From contig NZ_CP094534.1 of assembly GCF_022811645.1 (NCBI RefSeq), forward strand, positions 2,728,001 through 2,792,000: DNA of 64,000 nt, given 5' to 3'. Source of the DNA: Hymenobacter monticola (lineage in GTDB: Bacteria; Bacteroidota; Bacteroidia; Cytophagales; Hymenobacteraceae). The notes beneath the pieces were generated by a model. That model saw only the letters and a list, made by a program, of their open reading frames with translations. It was not told where the DNA came from and did no database searches. Below, piece after piece: positions 6,310 through 41,062 of the stretch; the first letter of the stretch is position 1; each line of letters opens with the position of its first letter. A program made the position numbers and the translations under genes.

Positions 6310-6454
6310 GTGTTGAATGTAGAGGGTTGAATGTTGAGTCGGAGAAGAAGCTGGTAGCTGGTTCACCCTTTATGATTCAACACTTAAATAAGAGAACGAG
6401 GGAGCAGAAAGGCGGCGGAATTAATTCAACACTCAACATTCAACCCTCAACACT
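6310..6454. repeat. Type A low-complexity inverted repeat, copy 1
   Basis: Left arm 6310-6340 and right arm 6425-6454 are reverse complements built from the core GAGGGTTGAATGTTGAG and variants, around an 84-nt spacer. The right arm overlaps the end of the acetyltransferase gene: the repeat supplies the last four codons and the TGA stop. The left arm lies 8 nt upstream of the aminotransferase start. Confidence 0.85.
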
Positions 6455-7141
6455 CCCGATTGCTTTGGCCGGCACGCCTACGGCCGTGACGCCGGCCGGC
6501 AGGTCGCGCACCACCACGGCGCCAGCGCCCACAATGCTGCCCGCACCTACGGCCACGCTCTGAATCACGGTGGCGTTGGCGCCCAGGTAGCAGCCAGTGC
6601 CCAACTGCACCGCGCCGCTCACGTTGGCGTGGGGCATCAGAGAACAGAAATCGGCCAGCACGGCATCGTGGCCCACAGTGCAGCCCAGGTTGAGCAGCAC
6701 GAAGCGGCCCAGCGAAATATCACAAGTCAACAGGCAGCCTTGCTGGATGATGCAACCTTCGCCCAGCGTGATGCGCTGGTAGGCAGTGGGTTCTACCTGA
6801 GGGTGCACCAGAGGCGGGAAAGTGAGCTTATCGGAGGTAAGGCGGCCCACCACGGCGGCCCGGCCAGCCGAGCTGCCCACGGCCACGGCCACGGCCAGCG
6901 GCTCGGCGGTAGCGTTGAGGTCGGCGGCGGTGCCGAGGTAGGGGAGGCCGGCCACGGTGGGCGTGGCCGGCGGCTGGTCGTCGTAGAAGCCGCGCACGTC
7001 CCAGGTGGGGTGGCGGGCGTTGAGCTGCCGCAGCAGCAGCAGCACTTCGCGGCCCAGCCCGCCTGCCCCGAAAATGACAAGCGGCGCGCCGGCTTCTTCG
7101 GCTTCGTATTCAGAAAAAAACAGAGAGGTCATGGGCATCAT
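6440..7141 (-). CDS. NeuD/PglD-family sugar O/N-acetyltransferase
   Basis: Left-handed beta-helix acetyltransferase of the PglD/NeuD type (233 residues). The N-terminal nucleotide-binding domain has VIFGAGGLGREVLLLL (about residue 22). The hexapeptide-repeat half contains the family histidine region TVGHDAVLADF (about residue 155), then SGAVQLGTGCYLGANATVIQ and AGAVVVRDLP. It probably transfers acetyl from acetyl-CoA to a UDP-amino-sugar made by the adjacent aminotransferase (inference). The start abuts the stop of the upstream sugar transferase, so the genes are coupled. The last residues (SVEG) and the stop codon lie in a type A repeat, which suggests the repeat replaced the original C-terminus. 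Confidence 0.92.
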   Translation of the reverse strand: MMPMTSLFFSEYEAEEAGAPLVIFGAGGLGREVLLLLRQLNARHPTWDVRGFYDDQPPATPTVAGLPYLGTAADLNATAEPLAVAVAVGSSAGRAAVVGRLTSDKLTFPPLVHPQVEPTAYQRITLGEGCIIQQGCLLTCDISLGRFVLLNLGCTVGHDAVLADFCSLMPHANVSGAVQLGTGCYLGANATVIQSVAVGAGSIVGAGAVVVRDLPAGVTAVGVPAKAIGSVEG

Positions 7142-8777: not shown

Positions 8778-9725
8778 TTACACCGGCATTGCCGGCTCCA
8801 AATCCGGTTCCTTGTCCTTCATTAGCCGGGCCACCAGCGGGTGAATGAGCACGCTGAGAACAATGAGCAGCGTACCGATGTAAAACCCCGTGCTCATGCG
8901 CTCGCCGTTGAACTGCGGCGCGTGCAACAAGCCCTTGGTGTGTAGCCAATAGATGCCGGCCGCCATGCCGATGCCATACACCGGCTCCAGGTTGATGGTC
9001 AGGTTTACGGCGAAAGGGGAGATGCGCTTCATCAATTCTACCGAAGTGGAGAAGGCATACACTGTGCACACGCCGGCCAGCAAACCCAGCCACAGCCAGT
9101 CGTAGCCGTGCCAGGCCAGCTGCAGGCCCCGGCCCTGCGTGAAATAGCGGCTGTAGACGGGGAAGAACAGCGCGATGCTCAGGCAGGCACCCAGCATCTC
9201 ATAAAACGTGAGCCGCAGCGGCGGATGCTGCTTAACCAACTTGGAGTTTAGCACGCTAAACAGCGCTGACAAGCCGGCCGACAGCACTGCCACGCCCAAG
9301 CCCAATAGTTGGTCCAGTTCGGCCTGGCTCACCAAGTACAACCCCGCCATTGTAATCAACCCGAGGCCCACCTCGTAGCCGCGCACCCGGCGCCAGAGCA
9401 GCAGCGGCTCCAGCAGCGAGGTCCACAAGGCCAGCGTGGCTAGTCCGGCCAAACACACGCTTACCGACGACAGCCGCGCCGCCAGAAAAAAGGTAATCCA
9501 GTGCGTGGCCACCAGCGCGCCCACTGCCAGCAGCCGCAGCGCCTGGCCTGCCGGGATGCGCCAGGGCATGCGCCGGGCCACCAGCAGCACCGCCAGCCCC
9601 GTGGACGCCAGCAGCGTGCGCCAAAACACCAGCTCCACCGATGGCAAGCTCAGCAGCTTGCCTAAAATGGCCGTGAAGCCCCACAGGAGCACAATGAAAT
9701 GAAGCTTGAGGTAGTCTCTTAGCAA
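8778..9725 (-). CDS. EamA/DMT-family transporter
   Basis: Inner-membrane transporter of the drug/metabolite superfamily with about ten hydrophobic segments in two halves, starting at LKLHFIVLLWGFTAILGKLL. The substrate cannot be read from sequence. The frame continues upstream to 9791, but those codons translate a low-complexity inverted repeat (PPHPPTLIPL). I chose the TTG at 9725, directly before RDYLKLHF, which matches the usual N-terminus of this subgroup. The gene is convergent with ispE. Confidence 0.88.
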   Translation of the reverse strand: MLRDYLKLHFIVLLWGFTAILGKLLSLPSVELVFWRTLLASTGLAVLLVARRMPWRIPAGQALRLLAVGALVATHWITFFLAARLSSVSVCLAGLATLALWTSLLEPLLLWRRVRGYEVGLGLITMAGLYLVSQAELDQLLGLGVAVLSAGLSALFSVLNSKLVKQHPPLRLTFYEMLGACLSIALFFPVYSRYFTQGRGLQLAWHGYDWLWLGLLAGVCTVYAFSTSVELMKRISPFAVNLTINLEPVYGIGMAAGIYWLHTKGLLHAPQFNGERMSTGFYIGTLLIVLSVLIHPLVARLMKDKEPDLEPAMPV

Positions 9726-9823
9726 GGGTATAAGGGTAGGAGGGTGTGGGGGTATGAGGAATGAGATAGGTCGAAGGAAAAAGCAACTCATACCCTCCTA
9801 CCCCCACACCCTCATACCCTAAA
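9725..9823. repeat. Type B low-complexity inverted repeat
   Basis: Left arm 9725-9759 and right arm 9787-9823 are imperfect reverse complements made of units such as AGGGTGTGGGGGTATGAGG. The spacer is about 27 nt. The right arm ends 1 nt before the lptF/lptG-type stop codon and the left arm begins at the EamA start codon. Confidence 0.8.
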
Positions 9824-26245: not shown

Positions 26246-26413
26246 CAGTGTTGAGTTTTGAGGGTTGAATGTTGAGTGAGCTTTTGGCGCGAAATAGCTG
26301 GTATGCGGAGAAAGTGCTGCTTCGATAAAAACCATGTGGCTTTGCTCCCGTTGCTACTATTGAAGTGTTTGATTGACCTCACTCAACCCTCAACATTTAA
26401 AACTCAACCCTCC
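26246..26413. repeat. Type A low-complexity inverted repeat, copy 4
   Basis: Left arm 26246-26280 and right arm 26379-26413 are imperfect reverse complements carrying the core GAGGGTTGAATGTTGAG or variants, around a spacer of about 98 nt. The left arm begins 3 nt after the rnc stop and the right arm ends 3 nt before the nadE start. Confidence 0.85.
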
Positions 26414-34519: not shown

Positions 34520-34601
34520 AGTAGTAAGACGTGAGTAGCAAGAAGTAAGACGAAGTGAGCAACAGTATCTTGTTACTTGCTACTCACTTCTTACTACTTA
34601 A
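34520..34601. repeat. Type C low-complexity inverted repeat
   Basis: Left arm 34520-34560 and right arm 34569-34601 pair imperfectly. The arms are made of short direct units (AGTAAGACG, GTGAGTAGCAAGAAGTAAG). The right arm ends 3 nt before the stop of the YgjP-like gene and the left arm begins 8 nt before the yidD start. Confidence 0.75.
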
Positions 34602-35445: not shown

Positions 35446-36375
35446 ATGCAACACTGTTTACCCCGGTATCTTTCAATAATTGGTTTCTTTTGGGCTTGTT
35501 CGGGTGGGCTGACGGCCGCCGCGCAGGGCAACGGCCCGGGTGTGCGGGGCGCCCGCGCGGCCGGCCTCAGCAACGCCTCGGTGGCGCTGGCCGGCGAGGT
35601 GTGGAGCATGGGCAACAACGTGGCCGGCATCGGCGAGATTAAGCAGCCCAGTGTGGGGTTTTACGGCGAAAACCGCTACTTCAGCTCGGCCCTGAACGTG
35701 GGCGCGCTCACCGTAGCGCTGCCGCTGGGCCGCCAGCCCAACACCGGCACGCCCACCGACGGCATGGCCGCTCCCCAGGTAGTGGCGCCGGCCGCCCGCA
35801 CCTGGGCCCGCCACGGCGTGGTGGCGTTTGAAGCGCAGCGCTTCGGCGGCGTGCTCTACAACGAAACCCGCGTGGGCGCCGGCTACGGATACCGCTTCGG
35901 CCAAATCAGCCTCGGCGCCCGCGTCGACATGCTGCAAGTGAGCATCGAGGGGCTGGGCAGCCGGCGCGTGCTGCTGGGCACGCTGGGCGGGCAGATTGAG
36001 GTGCTGCCCAACCGCCTGACCTTCGGCGCCTCGCTCTACAACCTGAGCCAAACCCGCCTGGCCAGCTACCAGGACGAGCGGGTGCCCACCGTCCTCAAGG
36101 CTGGCCTGGCCTACCGGCCCGGCTCGCAGGTGCTGCTGGTGGTCGAAACCGAAAAAGACGTGGAGCGTGCCGCCAATTTCAAAGCGGGCCTGGAATACCG
36201 GCCAGTGCCAGTGCTGGCCGCGCGCCTGGGCCTGGCTTCGCTCACCGAGCAGGCCAGCGCGGGCATCGGGCTAGCGACTGGGAGCTTTCAGCTAGACTAC
36301 GCGGCGGCGTTTCAGCAGGCGCTGGGTTTCAGCCATCACCTGAGCATCAGTAAGTCGTGGGGCGGGAAGCAATGA
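35446..36375 (+). CDS. PorV/PorQ-like outer-membrane beta-barrel protein
   Basis: From the ATG at 35446 the 309-residue product has a signal peptide (RYLSIIGFFWACSGGLTAAAQ). The PorV/PorQ-type opening GARAAGLSNASVALAGEVWSMGNNVAG follows, then alternating beta strands to an aromatic-rich C-terminus. PorV and PorQ proteins serve type IX secretion, and this may be a relative; a general outer-membrane protein is also possible. The frame upstream to 35368 has no signal features. It overlaps the next gene by ATGA. Confidence 0.78.
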   Translation: MQHCLPRYLSIIGFFWACSGGLTAAAQGNGPGVRGARAAGLSNASVALAGEVWSMGNNVAGIGEIKQPSVGFYGENRYFSSALNVGALTVALPLGRQPNTGTPTDGMAAPQVVAPAARTWARHGVVAFEAQRFGGVLYNETRVGAGYGYRFGQISLGARVDMLQVSIEGLGSRRVLLGTLGGQIEVLPNRLTFGASLYNLSQTRLASYQDERVPTVLKAGLAYRPGSQVLLVVETEKDVERAANFKAGLEYRPVPVLAARLGLASLTEQASAGIGLATGSFQLDYAAAFQQALGFSHHLSISKSWGGKQ

Positions 36376-38540
36376 AGAGAACTTTACGCTTAGCTACTTC
36401 GGGGAAGATGCGAAACGGCCTGGCTGGGCTGGTAGCTGGCAGCGCCTTGCTGCTAAGTCATTCGCTGAAAGCGCAGGACTACGTGCGGCGCGCGCCCGAC
36501 CTCGACCGATTGACGCAGGAGCTGTTTGCCGAAATCCAGTCGGACCAGGTACCCTACGAGGACCTGTACGAGACGCTGCTGCAGTACTACCAAACGCCCA
36601 TCAACCTCAACACCGCCACCCGCGAGGAGCTGCGCGGGTTGCTGCTGCTCAACGAAAACCAGATAACCACGCTGCTCAAGCACCGCCAGGAAAACGGCGA
36701 CCTGCTGAGCGTGTATGAGCTGCAAAGCATTGAGGGCTACGACCTGCGCACCATCAACCGCATTCTGCCCTTCGTGACAGTGCAAAGCAGCAACGCCAAC
36801 CGCAGCCGCGGCACGCTGTGGCAGCGCATTGCCCGCGAAGACAACAACGCCCTGTTTCTGCGCTACGAGCGGGTGCTGCAGCAGCGCCAGGGCTACACGC
36901 CGCCCACCATCTACCAGGGCCAGCCCACTACGCGCTACCTCGGCTCGCCCGACAAGATGCTCATTCGCTACCGCGTGAGCCACACCAAGGACTTTAGCCT
37001 GGGCTTTTCTCTGGAAAAGGACGCCGGTGAGCAATTCATTTGGAACCCGAAGAACGGGCAGTTCGGAGCCGACTATGTGTCGGCGCACTTCGTGCTGCAG
37101 GAGCGGGGGCGGCTCAAAACCCTGGCGCTGGGCGACTACCAGCTGCAGTTCGGGCAGGGGCTGCTGCTGTCGTCGGGCCTGGGCGTGGGCAAGGGGGCCG
37201 AAACCATTACCACGCTGCGGCGCTCGTCGCTGGGCGTGCGAGCGTACTCGTCGCTGCTCGAAAACACGTTTTTCCGGGGCGGGGCGGCCACGGTGCAGGT
37301 GGCGCCCACGGTGCAGGCCACGGCGTTTGTGTCGCACAAGAACGTGGACGCCAACCTGCAGCAAAGCCAGGATTCGCTGGCGCAGTTCGACGAGTTTACT
37401 TCGGGCCTGCTCTACACCGGCTTCCACCGCACGGCCTCGGAGCTGGCCAACCGCCACCAGCTGCAGGAAACCATCGGGGGCGGCAACGCCACTTACACCA
37501 GCCGCGACGGCAACCTGGCCATCGGGGCCACGGGCGTGTTCACGCACTACGGCACGGCCTTGCTCAAGCGCCCTGAGCCCTACAACCGCTTCGAGTTCAG
37601 CGGCAAGGAAAACCTGGCCCTCAGCCTCAACTACAGCTACGTGTACCGCAACTTCCTGCTTTTTGGCGAGACGGCGCGCAGCAGCGGGGGCGGCCTGGGC
37701 ACCGTGAACGGCCTGCTGGCCAGCCTGGGCCCGCAAGTGGACGCGGCCCTGCTGGTGCGCCACTACGACGCCGACTTCCACACGCTCTACGGCAACGCCT
37801 TCAGCGAAAACACCCGCAACATCAACGAAACCGGCGTGTACCTCGGCCTGAAGGTGCGGCCCATTGCGCAGTGGGAAATATCGGCCTACTACGACCAGTT
37901 CCGCTTTCCGTGGTTGCGCTACCGGGCCAGTTCGCCCACCGACGGCCACGACGCCCTGGTGCGCGTGGCCTATTCGCCCACCAAAACCAGCTTGCTCTAC
38001 GTGCAGGCCCGCCAGCGCCTCAAGCCCCGCGACCTGGCCACCGCTGACCTTGTCAACATCGCCGCCAACCGCGTGCTACCCCTGCCCGGCGAGCAGCTGC
38101 GCCAAAGCCTGCTGGTGTACTACAACACCGACGTGAGCACGGCGCTCAGCCTGCGCACCCGCATGCAAACCTCGCGCCTGCGCGACGACACCAATCTGGC
38201 CTGGCGCAGCGGCTACGCCCTGGCCCAGGACGTGAGCTACCAGCTCAACCGCAGCCTCAAGCTCACCGCCCGCTACTCGCTCTTCGACGCCGACGACTAC
38301 GACACCCGCCAGTACGTGTATGAGCAGGACGTGCTGCTGGCCGTGTCCATCCCCGCCCTCTACGGCCAGGGCACCCGCGTCTACGGCATCGCCGAAATCC
38401 GCCTCAACCGCTCCATGACGCTGTGGCTGCGCTACGCCGAAACCCGCTACCGCCACCAGGGCACAATTGGGAGCGGCCTCGAAACCATTCAGGGCTCGCT
38501 GCGCAACGAGGTGAAGGCGCAATTGCGGGTGAAGTTTTAG
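36372..38540 (+). CDS. Helix-hairpin-helix / outer-membrane barrel protein
   Basis: About 722 residues from the ATG at 36372, which overlaps the previous stop by ATGA. A signal sequence (about residues 15-35, ending SLKAQ) is followed by two ComEA-like helix-hairpin-helix units: PINLNTATREELRGLLLLNENQI and LLSVYELQSIEGYDLRTINRILP. The remaining 550 residues are rich in alternating polar/aromatic strands (NLALSLNYSYVYRNFLLFGE) and end in VKAQLRVKF, typical of an outer-membrane barrel. Similar fusions are common in Bacteroidota; their role is not established. The TAG stop lies in the left arm of the type D repeat. Confidence 0.85.
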   Translation: MKRTLRLATSGKMRNGLAGLVAGSALLLSHSLKAQDYVRRAPDLDRLTQELFAEIQSDQVPYEDLYETLLQYYQTPINLNTATREELRGLLLLNENQITTLLKHRQENGDLLSVYELQSIEGYDLRTINRILPFVTVQSSNANRSRGTLWQRIAREDNNALFLRYERVLQQRQGYTPPTIYQGQPTTRYLGSPDKMLIRYRVSHTKDFSLGFSLEKDAGEQFIWNPKNGQFGADYVSAHFVLQERGRLKTLALGDYQLQFGQGLLLSSGLGVGKGAETITTLRRSSLGVRAYSSLLENTFFRGGAATVQVAPTVQATAFVSHKNVDANLQQSQDSLAQFDEFTSGLLYTGFHRTASELANRHQLQETIGGGNATYTSRDGNLAIGATGVFTHYGTALLKRPEPYNRFEFSGKENLALSLNYSYVYRNFLLFGETARSSGGGLGTVNGLLASLGPQVDAALLVRHYDADFHTLYGNAFSENTRNINETGVYLGLKVRPIAQWEISAYYDQFRFPWLRYRASSPTDGHDALVRVAYSPTKTSLLYVQARQRLKPRDLATADLVNIAANRVLPLPGEQLRQSLLVYYNTDVSTALSLRTRMQTSRLRDDTNLAWRSGYALAQDVSYQLNRSLKLTARYSLFDADDYDTRQYVYEQDVLLAVSIPALYGQGTRVYGIAEIRLNRSMTLWLRYAETRYRHQGTIGSGLETIQGSLRNEVKAQLRVKF

Positions 38541-39021
38541 GTATTCGGTTTTTGGTGTTGGGTTTTAGGTTTTTGGTGTTGGGGTGTTACGGCGGTAGGT
38601 TATTAGGTTATTGAGCATTCGCATTCCATCTGCTAATAGCTGGAGAAGTGCTTCGGCCTCATGGGTGGAAACCAGACGACGTTCCTGCGCGCGTTTCACC
38701 CACAGGCAGGTTTCACGGGCTGACCCACGGGCAATGACGAAAAAGTGAAGCGCGTCAGCCTTGCTGTAGCGTCCATCGCCTTCTACTAAATTGGCCCCGA
38801 TGCTATCGGCAGAGCGAATAATCTGTTTACCAATAGTATCCTGGGCCAACAACTTCCACTGTTGCACCATATCCCAAATGCGTCCCGTGGCTTCCTCAAA
38901 GCGCGCGAAGACCATCAGTTCCTCCATTGGTTGATGCATAAAGAAGAGCAGATTATTGAATCAATACCGAACACCCAAAACCTAAAACCTAACACTTAAA
39001 ACCGAACACCCAATACCTACC
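38535..39021. mobile_element. Type D inverted-repeat element carrying a four-helix-bundle gene
   Basis: Left arm 38535-38588 and right arm 38964-39021 are long imperfect inverted repeats. The left arm contains the direct repeat GGTTTTTGGTGTTGGG twice (38547-38562 and 38568-38583). The 487-bp unit lies exactly between two convergent genes whose stops (38540 and 39023) touch the arms. It encloses one gene on the minus strand. The architecture resembles the type A-C elements elsewhere in the window plus an ORF. Mobility is inferred; no target duplication was established. Confidence 0.6.
38565..38939 (-). CDS. Four-helix-bundle protein (23S rRNA intervening-sequence protein family)
   Basis: A 124-residue all-helical protein with the family signature IIRSADSIGANLVEGDGRYSK (about residue 40). 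It is followed by ALHFFVIARGSARETCLWV and a final helix EAEALLQLLADGMRMLNNLI. The family includes ORFs inside 23S rRNA intervening sequences (Leptospira, Coxiella) and relatives of the Avd accessory protein of diversity-generating retroelements. No reverse transcriptase or variable repeat is present here. The last eight residues and the stop are encoded by the inverted-repeat arm. Codon use is less GC-rich than in the neighbours. Confidence 0.9.
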   Translation of the reverse strand: MHQPMEELMVFARFEEATGRIWDMVQQWKLLAQDTIGKQIIRSADSIGANLVEGDGRYSKADALHFFVIARGSARETCLWVKRAQERRLVSTHEAEALLQLLADGMRMLNNLITYRRNTPTPKT

Positions 39022-39022
39022 C

Positions 39023-40969
39023 CTAGCTCTCCGTCTTCAGCAGCACCACTTGGGCCTTGTCGGCGGCGCTGATTTTACGGCGGAAATCCAGGTAGCCGGC
39101 GTAGGCGGTGGCGGGCAGCTGGCCGCGCTTCATTTCGAGGCGGCGGATGTACTGAATGCTGCCATCAGGCAAGGCAGCATACTGGCTGGAATAGATGCCA
39201 TAAGCGGTGCTGAGCTGCACGGGCGCGGGCAGGTTTTCGGGCTTGAAGCCGGCGGGCAGGTGCAGGCGCACGGTGTCGGCGTGCAGGCAGGCGTCGGACA
39301 GCCACACGGGCGTCTGGCGCTCGCCCACCTGGGCGGGCAGGGCGGGCAGGCGGCTCAATAGGTTGGGCGCAATGAACACGCGCTTGCCGCTGGGCGCCGC
39401 GAAGCCCGGCAGCGCCAGGCCCAGGGTTTCGACGATACCGGGCGCGCCCTTGCTGGGTGTGGCAGCCAGGTTGAATTTGGTGAGCGTAAAGGTGGGCAGC
39501 CGGAGGTGGTCGGTGACGTACTTCTTCTGGTCGGTAGGGCCCAGCTCGTGCAGCAGCTGGGCATACAGGTCCTGCTCCTGGCCGGTGCGCAGGGTGCGCG
39601 CCGTGGCCGTGGCCCCGCCTTTTTCGTCGATGAACAGGTCGAGGCGGCGCTCCTGACGGTTTTCGGCCACGCCGTAGCGGGGCGTGGCCACCAGTTGTCC
39701 GCCCTTGGGCGTCACCAGCAGGGCGTGGCGGTTGCCGGTGAAGCTGCCCATGTAGCCAAACGGCGCGGTCTGGCTGGTGCATTCCAGCCACAGGGTGTCG
39801 GGCTTGCCGGCCTGGGCCAGGGGCACGCACACAATGGCGTGGTTGAACTGCGAGCTGGGGAAGTCGGCGCGCAGGTCGGGGCGGTCGGCGCCGGCGCCCA
39901 CCAGGGCCACGTAGGCGGGCACGCCGGCGGCGGCCAGCAGGGCCGTGGTGTAGTTGCTCAGGGCCTTGCAGTCGCCGTAGCCGTTGCTGGCCACCGAGCT
40001 GGCCGGGAAGGTTTGCCAGCCGCCCAGGCCCAGCTGCACCGAGATGTAGCGGGTGCTGCCCTGCAGCATTTCGTACACGCGCCGGGCCTTGGTGCGGGCA
40101 TCGGGCGCATCCTTCACCAGGGCCTGCACCTTGGCCACGGTGGCGGGCGGCAACACGTCGCGGCCGGCGTTCAGCTCGTAGCTCCACTGGCCCAGGCCCT
40201 GCCAGGTGGCAGCTGTGCCCTTGTAGCCTTGCACTTCAAAATTGCCGGGCGCCAGCACCACCGCGGGCGTGGTGTAGGCCAGCGGCGGGGCGGCTTCTTC
40301 CTCTTCCACAGCAGGCAGGTTAGCTAGCCGCCATTCGTACACTTCCTGGCCGGACGCGCTGCCACGCGTCACGGCCACGCCCTTGGGCAGCTGCCGCTCC
40401 TGGTAGCGCAGGGGCAGGGCGGACGGCGTCGTCACCTTGAAGGTGGCGCTTTGCACGGCCAGGCCTTCCTCGTCCTGGGGCTGAAAGCTGGGGTAAAACA
40501 AGGCATTATCCACCGCCAGCTCGTAGTCAAATTCCACGGTGTAGGGCGTTTGGGGCTGGCGCAAATCGGCGTAGCGCACGCGCACGTCGGTCATGAAATT
40601 GCCGCCCGCGTCGCCCACGCCCTGGTCGTGGATTTCGGCAGCGCGCAGCTGGTGCAGCAGGCGGCCGTCGGCGTCGTACACGGCGCCGCGCAGGTAGTTA
40701 AGAGCGTGCAGCGCGTCGTAGCTCACCGAGTGGCGGCCCTGGTCGTCGCCGGCCGCATCCAGCACTGTAACCACGCGGTGCACGGCGTATACCAGCCGCC
40801 CGGCCGACTTCACGGTTACCACTTCGTCGTTGGCGCGGAGCACGGCGTGGGCGCCCTCGCGCAAGGCCGTTGGAATGTCGGCCACCGCGTACTTGGGCGC
40901 CGGCGCGGCCGGGGGCAGCAAAAGGCCACTCAGGGGCAAGGCGGCCAGAAGGGAAAGTAATGCTTTCAT
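39023..40969 (-). CDS. DUF3857 transglutaminase-like protein, catalytic triad plausible
   Basis: About 648 residues from the ATG at 40969, with a signal peptide (MKALLSLLAALPLSGLLLPP). The N-terminal DUF3857 domain includes AGRLVYAVHRVVTVLDAAGDD. The transglutaminase-like core has a Cys in GYGDCKALSNYTTALLAAAG (about residue 317), a His in SQFNHAIVCVPL and an acidic position in DTLWLECTSQTAPFG. A C-terminal beta domain (DUF3858-like) follows. It is probably periplasmic; function unknown. It is the most divergent of three tandem relatives and the only one keeping the Cys and His. I chose the start at the signal peptide rather than 41014. Confidence 0.88.
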   Translation of the reverse strand: MKALLSLLAALPLSGLLLPPAAPAPKYAVADIPTALREGAHAVLRANDEVVTVKSAGRLVYAVHRVVTVLDAAGDDQGRHSVSYDALHALNYLRGAVYDADGRLLHQLRAAEIHDQGVGDAGGNFMTDVRVRYADLRQPQTPYTVEFDYELAVDNALFYPSFQPQDEEGLAVQSATFKVTTPSALPLRYQERQLPKGVAVTRGSASGQEVYEWRLANLPAVEEEEAAPPLAYTTPAVVLAPGNFEVQGYKGTAATWQGLGQWSYELNAGRDVLPPATVAKVQALVKDAPDARTKARRVYEMLQGSTRYISVQLGLGGWQTFPASSVASNGYGDCKALSNYTTALLAAAGVPAYVALVGAGADRPDLRADFPSSQFNHAIVCVPLAQAGKPDTLWLECTSQTAPFGYMGSFTGNRHALLVTPKGGQLVATPRYGVAENRQERRLDLFIDEKGGATATARTLRTGQEQDLYAQLLHELGPTDQKKYVTDHLRLPTFTLTKFNLAATPSKGAPGIVETLGLALPGFAAPSGKRVFIAPNLLSRLPALPAQVGERQTPVWLSDACLHADTVRLHLPAGFKPENLPAPVQLSTAYGIYSSQYAALPDGSIQYIRRLEMKRGQLPATAYAGYLDFRRKISAADKAQVVLLKTES

Positions 40970-41062
40970 CGTTCGTGAGGAATCAAGCAGGAAAAAAGGC
41001 GTCCTGTCGAGCACAGCCGAGACAGAGCGCCTTTTCCCTTGCTTTTTCTTTCTGTTAAAAAA

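Follow-up and report, generated by a model that had tools for sequence, protein, structure and literature searches.

In the 6.1-Mb genome of Hymenobacter monticola, a gene for a small four-helix-bundle (4HB) protein lies between two inverted arms made of tandem heptads, at the junction of two convergent protein genes. The locus belongs to a stretch of 64,000 nucleotides (nt), C1:2728001-2792000, which was analysed as a whole and is called the window; positions given without a contig are those of the window. The whole element, to which no strand is assigned, occupies 38534..39023 and is bounded by the two convergent stop codons. Its gene (38565..38939, minus strand) encodes 124 amino acids (aa) and falls into the PF05635/TIGR02436 family. 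The left arm (38534..38583, plus strand) comprises about 7 tandem GGTDTTN units, GGT first, and contains both the end of the 4HB gene, whose stop codon is at 38565-38567, and the stop codon of the left neighbour. The right arm (38963..39019, minus strand) carries the GGTDTTN heptad in inverted orientation, in about 8 tandem units. On the left, a 727-aa open reading frame (ORF) on the plus strand (36357..38540) presumably encodes a helix-hairpin-helix-like protein; on the right, a 663-aa ORF on the minus strand (39023..41014), which we take to resemble DUF3857/transglutaminase-like proteins, abuts the right arm with its end at 39023.

A first-pass annotation of this DNA had described a gene of the 23S rRNA intervening sequence (IVS) family enclosed by inverted arms, with its last codons and stop inside one arm and the stops of both convergent neighbours touching the arms. 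All of this stands. Repeat finding yields a 57-nt inverted pair (38527-38583 / 38967-39023) with 81% complementarity, and the protein scores 76.5 bits against PF05635 (23S_rRNA_IVP, cut-off 33.8) and 80.1 bits against TIGR02436 (cut-off 24). The same annotation had seen 16-nt direct sub-repeats in the arms; one such repeat, GGTTTTTGGTGTTGGG, is indeed present at 38547-38562 and 38568-38583, but the basic unit is the 7-nt GGTDTTN, with repeat-finder spacings of 14 and 21. The arms pair with a score of 34-35; for 300 stretches drawn at random from the window, the 99th percentile is 14 and the highest score 24. The predicted RNA fold of the element, in which the arms are paired, has a z-score of -6.4 (100 shuffles). 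The 4HB ORF is the only one of at least 60 aa entirely within the element. A known RNA family was ruled out by a scan of 38400-39150, which gave no Rfam match up to an E value of 1.

Beyond its own family, the focal protein matches two hypothetical-protein models only, both below cut-off. It possesses Q39, R42, N50 and E76, the positions invariant in an alignment of 16 sequences, as well as the near-invariant S46 and E53. The AlphaFold2 model (mean predicted local distance difference test score, pLDDT, of 94.3) is a four-helix bundle with predicted helices at residues 4-25, 30-55, 60-86 and 92-118. Two relatives in the PDB found by family profile, 2GSC and 2RLD, have 5 chains each, and passages of PMC4990558 describe the relative XCC0516 as a homopentameric toroid. 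The median dN/dS of 4HB genes is 0.05 in the 10 computable pairs of 18, the ratio being undefined in the other 8 where dS is saturated; to judge from these values, the protein is conserved by strong purifying selection. A phage origin was also considered and ruled out, the protein of another 4HB locus of the same genome (L001) having no relative among 50,697 phage records at an E value of 1e-5.

The H. monticola genome contains three PF05635 genes. All have inverted flanks (local alignment scores 24, 35 and 26) and each locus has a distinct unit: the 7-nt TGAGANN, the 7-nt GGTDTTN and the 8-nt GGGTANGN. At the TGAGANN locus, L001, a gap-free repeat finder gives no inverted pair and the score of 24 comes from gapped local alignment. 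Across the genus, 83 of 101 genomes carry a 4HB gene, with 235 matches in total and a patchy copy number of 0 to 9 genes per genome. The genus loci examined number 151, namely the best-scoring 150 of the 235 matches plus L003. Inverted flanks at or above the pairing threshold of 16, which has a chance pass rate of 3%, are found in 147 of them (the misses are L348, L352, L353 and L365), although at a few, such as L338 and L342, the best pairing falls in coding sequence. In comparison, the threshold is reached by 1 of 30 OsmC loci and, when the flanks of these genus loci are shifted, in 10 of 293 cases. The first-pass annotation named a lack of arms at other family members as a condition that would refute it; this condition does not hold, and its interpretation is supported.

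The best tandem period in the 151 loci is 7 in 129, 8 in 9, 6 in 7, 9 in 5 and 5 in 1. Units were counted where the periodic score of an arm is clear (104 and 107 arms out of 147 loci), and 167 of these 211 arms have 4-5 units; the focal arms, with 7-8 units, are longer than usual. The median element span is 482 nt (n=145). The 5' arm is richer in G than in C in 133 of the 147 gene-bearing loci and the reverse holds in 12. A neighbouring stop codon lies at most 20 nt from the arm edge in 162 of 239 cases (145 of the 147 loci) by a rough ORF test, whose figures are approximate since GC-rich DNA yields spurious ORFs.

Arms also flank 4HB genes far outside the genus. In a phylum-wide sample, inverted flanks were found at 21 of 30 loci. 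Of 80 named loci, 78 were usable (L317 and L321 were excluded for short flanks). Inverted flanks are present at 41 of the 61 that come from Bacteroidota and near relatives and, by record title, at 14 of the 17 of other groups, many of these being metagenome-assembled genomes (MAGs); only 2 of 125 shifted flanks paired. Armed loci outside Bacteroidota include Acidobacteria, Chloroflexi, Deltaproteobacteria, the candidate phyla radiation (CPR) and one archaeal MAG, and on cyanobacterial plasmids all 10 loci examined, of 24 records, have arms. A restriction of the element to Bacteroidota is ruled out by these loci, as is chance or simple low-complexity pairing by the flank controls together with the tandem periods other than 7 and 8. 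The element class is real and widespread. Unit length may vary further, the arms of L386, L379 and L383 seemingly having periods other than 7 or 8 (9 nt in L386).

The relation between protein and unit was examined in all pairs of the 147 genus loci, the 4 scoring below 16 being left out. Among the 10,051 pairs that lack a homologous flanking ORF, arm matches rise with protein similarity from 1.2% through 1.2%, 3.2%, 18% and 54% to 81%; at such non-homologous sites the arms match in 81% of pairs with a protein similarity of at least 0.8 and in about 1% below 0.35. The Mantel r is 0.41, and 0 of 1000 permutations reach the observed correlation. Conversely, where a homologous flank is shared and the proteins are dissimilar (similarity <0.5), the arms are shared in 0 of 235 pairs. 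Heptads are thus tied to the protein where sites are unrelated and are not tied to the site where a flank is shared, so that gene and arms are one unit that changes address. On these comparisons they behave as a single co-inherited cassette of about 480 nt, and some genomic addresses are used by different protein/unit pairs. Genome G082 (600 contigs, 6% contamination) has two relatives, L333 and L337, at sites without detected flank homology, both stretches being cut by contig ends. The membership rule of the class, that a protein clade goes with its unit, is new to the literature that was searched: no paper joining PF05635 proteins to heptad arms was found in open-licence PMC text.

Most copies of the array have no gene. 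In the H. monticola genome, the GGTDTTN unit (type A) is present at 17 sites, the focal one included, and one of these has a gene. Type A is rare across the genus, with the exception of G071 (434 hits), G000 (86), G036 (17) and G038 (13). G071, picked for its burst before its 4HB flanks had been seen, has a 4HB gene with a GGTDTTN-type unit (L231), and G038 likewise has one with a type A unit (L377); in G036, which is 82% complete, no type A 4HB gene was found among the loci examined, a scope that holds here for every statement that a matching gene was not found, as distinct from every 4HB gene of a genome. At L231-L239 of G071, near-perfect GGTGTTA elements without a gene occur beside the gene-bearing copy of that unit, and the burst of gene-less elements is apparently recent. 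Eight gene-less copies were compared with the inner flank that the gene-bearing copy has: three score 11-13 (the 99.9th percentile of shuffles is 9), three score 7 (99th percentile) and two show nothing. All gene-less sites with two arms have GGT first (14 of 14 and 7 of 7).

These numbers could be taken to mean that the heptad hairpins form a dispersed repeat of their own, in which 4HB genes merely land since gene ends tolerate insertion. Gene-less arrays are far more numerous than gene-bearing ones and some units have no matching 4HB gene found in the genome, as such hitch-hiking would have it. However, 147 of 151 genus loci have inverted flanks, the unit tracks the protein and not the site, and the inner flank of the gene-bearing copy is retained in those three G071 copies. 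Hitch-hiking is already disfavoured and we regard it as very unlikely.

The window also has four gene-less elements of inverted micro-repeats, with 7-nt or 8-nt units, at 6315-6455, 9724-9820, 26247-26411 and 34520-34600; the unit at 26247 matches none of the three 4HB genes of the genome and resembles the arms of L364, a 4HB locus elsewhere in the genus. In L048 (C1:5288600-5292600), a type A hairpin surrounds a different imperfect palindrome (GGGAGAACGGTCATCCTGAGCG...) and looks nested.

The focal junction was compared at 30 orthologous loci, that of H. monticola included, in stretches of 300-600 nt (59 nt for L177, which ends there). Gene plus arms are present in H. monticola and in G038 (L175). 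The other 28 have no 4HB gene by tblastn, no heptad arms were seen in these stretches, and no relative was seen that has the gene without arms; the empty sites that the first-pass annotation had suggested looking for thus exist. In 16 of these 28 loci the right-hand neighbour is retained, and gaps of only 15 nt (L186), 46 nt (L179) and 53 nt (L173) occur. In G081, whose neighbour is 94% identical, the gap is 53 nt and contains no 4HB gene. At L170, L181, L183 and L187-L189, the same stop-to-stop junction holds other palindromes resembling repetitive extragenic palindromic (REP) sequences, such as GTCATGCTGAGC...GCTCAGCATGAC. Several kinds of elements would seem to share gene ends as landing places.

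Cleaner comparisons are available on cyanobacterial plasmids, where 518 nt replace 11 (L394 vs L402), 494 replace 13 (L387 vs L398), 477 replace 36 (L391 vs L399) and 419 replace 16 (L396 vs L404). Such gene-end insertions of 419-518 nt agree with the earlier proposal of an IVS-like element able to insert at the ends of genes. In L396 the insertion lies just within the 3' end of an ORF, which now ends at the arm, and L400 has a gene-less arm pair where L391 has a gene. The comparison of L390 with L397 is less clean: flanking stretches are 98-99% identical and L397 has no 4HB gene there, but the intergenic stretches differ (849 vs 273 nt). No target-site duplication is visible in seven comparisons at four plasmid sites, which also include L394/L401, L394/L403 and L396/L405 and in which flank pieces are 85-97% identical, although very short duplications could escape. 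The homologous flanks never overlap at the insertion, and 10-36 nt of the empty site are replaced.

If the 4HB protein were a host regulator binding RNA or DNA, and the hairpins terminators or stability sites that do not move, then strong purifying selection, the position at stop codons and the predicted hairpin in the RNA would all be expected; passages of PMC2670836 moreover suggest roles of cyanobacterial 7-bp repeat hairpins in transcript stability, translation coupling or termination. Such a regulator is difficult to reconcile with relatives that have empty sites, with shared-flank sites that carry different protein/unit pairs and with a copy number that varies from 0 to 9 genes per genome, and we consider host regulation a distinctly unlikely explanation.

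The lack of visible target duplications also bears on two ways in which the element could be moved by an enzyme supplied in trans. A Y1 (HUH) transposase could move the hairpins as in REP systems, with the 4HB protein as an accessory. Hairpins of fixed polarity at gene ends are in keeping with this, and a Y1_Tnp match is present in 73 of 101 genus genomes, but G035, G038, G049 and G052 have 4HB genes and no detected Y1_Tnp, which makes such a transposase unlikely. Alternatively, the 4HB protein could cooperate with a reverse transcriptase (RT) that copies the element RNA, in the manner of Avd in diversity-generating retroelements (DGRs). The RNA would form a stable hairpin, and Avd (4DWL), also a four-helix-bundle protein, and PF05635 (2GSC) are homologous according to passages of PMC10053308. 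In contrast, the RVT_1 profile, beyond which other RTs are possible, matches in just 18 of 101 genus genomes, and 68 of the 83 that carry 4HB genes have no match, including G071 with the largest burst. This distribution disfavours an RT in trans as the general machinery, and we judge the retroelement explanation highly improbable.

We consider it likely, then, that the focal locus is one copy of a class of mobile elements of about 480 nt, in which a 4HB gene lies between inverted heptad-array arms and the protein binds the unit array of its own element. Each element would consist of a single PF05635 gene and two inverted arms, usually of 4-5 tandem 7-nt (sometimes 8-nt) units. On the element's single-stranded RNA or DNA, a pentameric 4HB ring would bind its own array with roughly one unit to each subunit, and the resulting complex might promote copying into new gene junctions by way of host replication or repair. 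It could act on gene-less copies as well. Stop codons and a stem, both provided by the arms, would make an insertion tolerable. In this model, the narrow range of 4-5 units per arm and the match between protein and unit would both follow from a ring whose subunits each read one unit. The class would be transposase-less, its mobility being inferred from the comparison of sites. Three features were not part of the first-pass annotation: the 7-nt code, the match with the protein and the dispersal of gene-less copies.

A number of observations weigh against this model. Nothing in the element resembles a strand-cutting enzyme, and both the movement of the element and the binding of units by the protein are inferred from sequence. 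In G024 the neighbour is 97% identical and the 713-nt gap holds other content and no element; this genome is closer to H. monticola than is G038 (97% vs 92% neighbour identity), yet is without the element, so that loss or repeated gain is needed. Beyond composition, the order of units is hardly mirrored between the arms: in the 57 of 147 loci tested, 2 reach p<=0.05 and the median p is 0.54, though the Wilcoxon p is 0.006. This argues against a precisely selected stem. The expected pattern of a core of 5 and a spacer of 2 was not found either, the two most variable phases being adjacent in 30 of 104 cases. Genomes with a matching gene do have higher hit counts (p 5e-6 for type A, carriers of GGTTTTT included; p 6e-5 for GTGCTT), but this association is partly circular as the counts include the genes' own arms: 4 of the 7 type A carriers show just 1-2 hits, and in each of these at least 1 is the gene's own arm, while 6 of the 13 type A hits of G038 are its gene's own arm. 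The GTGCTT carriers G009 (70), G091 (64) and G067 (58) are far above the contribution of their own arms. High GTGCTT counts are nevertheless found, among others, in G036 (131), G013 (48) and G002 (32) with no matching gene found, and in G080 (27) and G021 (19), which are without any 4HB match; the window, too, has heptad types without a matching gene. We interpret arrays of this sort as remnants, or as copies that have lost their gene.

Three stricter versions of the model were dropped. A strict rule of one gene for each repeat family in a genome agrees with types A, B and C of H. monticola but fails for GTGCTT and for the window types; a fixed 5-nt core plus 2-nt spacer is unsupported by the phase-variability test; and precise copying between arms, or a selected exact stem, finds little support in the unit-order test. 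Given that unit order is hardly mirrored, an exact stem seems to matter less than that the unit is recognised, though a stem can form.

The closest known systems are the 23S rRNA IVS of Coxiella and Leptospira, which carry the S23p ORF and thus a member of the same protein family. As described in passages of PMC4990558, the Coxiella IVS has 428 nt and its ORF lies within terminal inverted repeats (28-bp stem), as in the focal element, with tandem GACAGAT heptamers directly before the ORF whose number varies between strains; these heptamers strengthen the link of the focal element to 23S IVS. According to the same passages, IVS are sporadically distributed and thought to be horizontally moved, and the authors cite an old idea that the IVS is mobile and its ORF aids mobility; the heptamers are not tied there to intergenic relatives, 'Bacteroid*' having 0 occurrences in these passages. 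IVS sit inside rRNA genes and are excised by RNase III, whereas the focal element lies between protein genes. For this reason it is not an rRNA IVS by strict definition, although by analogy it may work like one. No rRNA match was found in the 17 4HB loci outside Bacteroidota, and passages of PMC11270868 report PF05635 ORFs in 16S and 23S rRNA insertions of CPR bacteria.

Intergenic heptads that form hairpins are also familiar from cyanobacteria, where the short tandemly repeated repetitive (STRR) sequences have usually 7-bp repeats and no known function (passages of PMC2670836). Like STRRs, the focal element has 7-nt intergenic units able to form a hairpin; unlike them, it occurs in a host that is not cyanobacterial and has the unit GGTDTTN, while STRR unit classes are cyanobacterial. 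The 4HB elements of cyanobacterial plasmids share the focal architecture. In the trnL intron of Nostoc, the P6b stem contains heptads TDNGATT or NNTGAGT, and TDNGATT repeatedly replaces NNTGAGT (passages of PMC4476775). The passages of PMC2670836 and PMC4476775 contain no link to a 4HB gene. The TAACTGA heptamers of Beggiatoaceae, cyanobacteria and Bacteroidetes (MacGregor; passages of PMC4679880) form intergenic arrays near gene ends, which are absent from short intergenic regions of some relatives. They differ from 4HB elements in having one unit, mostly in direct repeats, and in being read as regulatory, and neither four helix, S23 nor IVS is mentioned in those passages. PF05635 genes have further been reported in cas loci (passages of PMC3936711). 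On plasmids of Pseudanabaena (L389) and Anabaena (L390), a 4HB element with heptad arms lies between cas6 and cas4.

Other mobile systems resemble the focal class in one respect or another. REPs and bacterial interspersed mosaic elements (BIMEs), together with the REP-associated tyrosine transposases (RAYTs), combine many non-coding palindromic copies with one repeat-flanked protein gene, protein and repeat being matched. RAYTs, however, are Y1 HUH enzymes, and in the focal class the enclosed gene is PF05635 and the repeat a tandem heptad array with changing unit. DDE insertion sequences and miniature inverted-repeat transposable elements (MITEs) differ in that the focal element has no transposase gene inside and no target-site duplication was seen at the plasmid sites. 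Avd is a pentamer. A DGR has an RT beside Avd, in contrast to the focal element; most host genomes are without an RVT_1 match, and the only one in H. monticola is at C1:4639301, about 1.9 Mb away. The TRAP ring, of a fold unrelated to 4HB, binds spaced RNA triplets and may serve by analogy as a model of how repeated subunits could each hold one tandem unit.

A far more general proposal would join many of these systems, which no paper found in the searched open-licence PMC text brings together. The 4HB protein would be the recognition and mobility factor of an unrecognised transposase- and RT-free class that spans bacterial phyla and one archaeal MAG. A changing 7-nt unit, read by a pentameric ring, would be the code by which each protein is linked to its own arms and its gene-less copies. 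Of this class IVS, STRRs, the trnL P6b heptads, TAACTGA arrays and cas-operon 4HB genes would all be members or relics. We put the chances of this proposal at somewhat short of even. If it is true, a family labelled 23S rRNA-intervening sequence protein/S23, with no assigned function, would turn out to be the protein that a mobile element encodes as its partner. It would provide one answer to why some rRNA IVS carry a 4HB ORF and to what the cyanobacterial heptanucleotide hairpins are, and may account for the presence of 4HB genes in cas loci.

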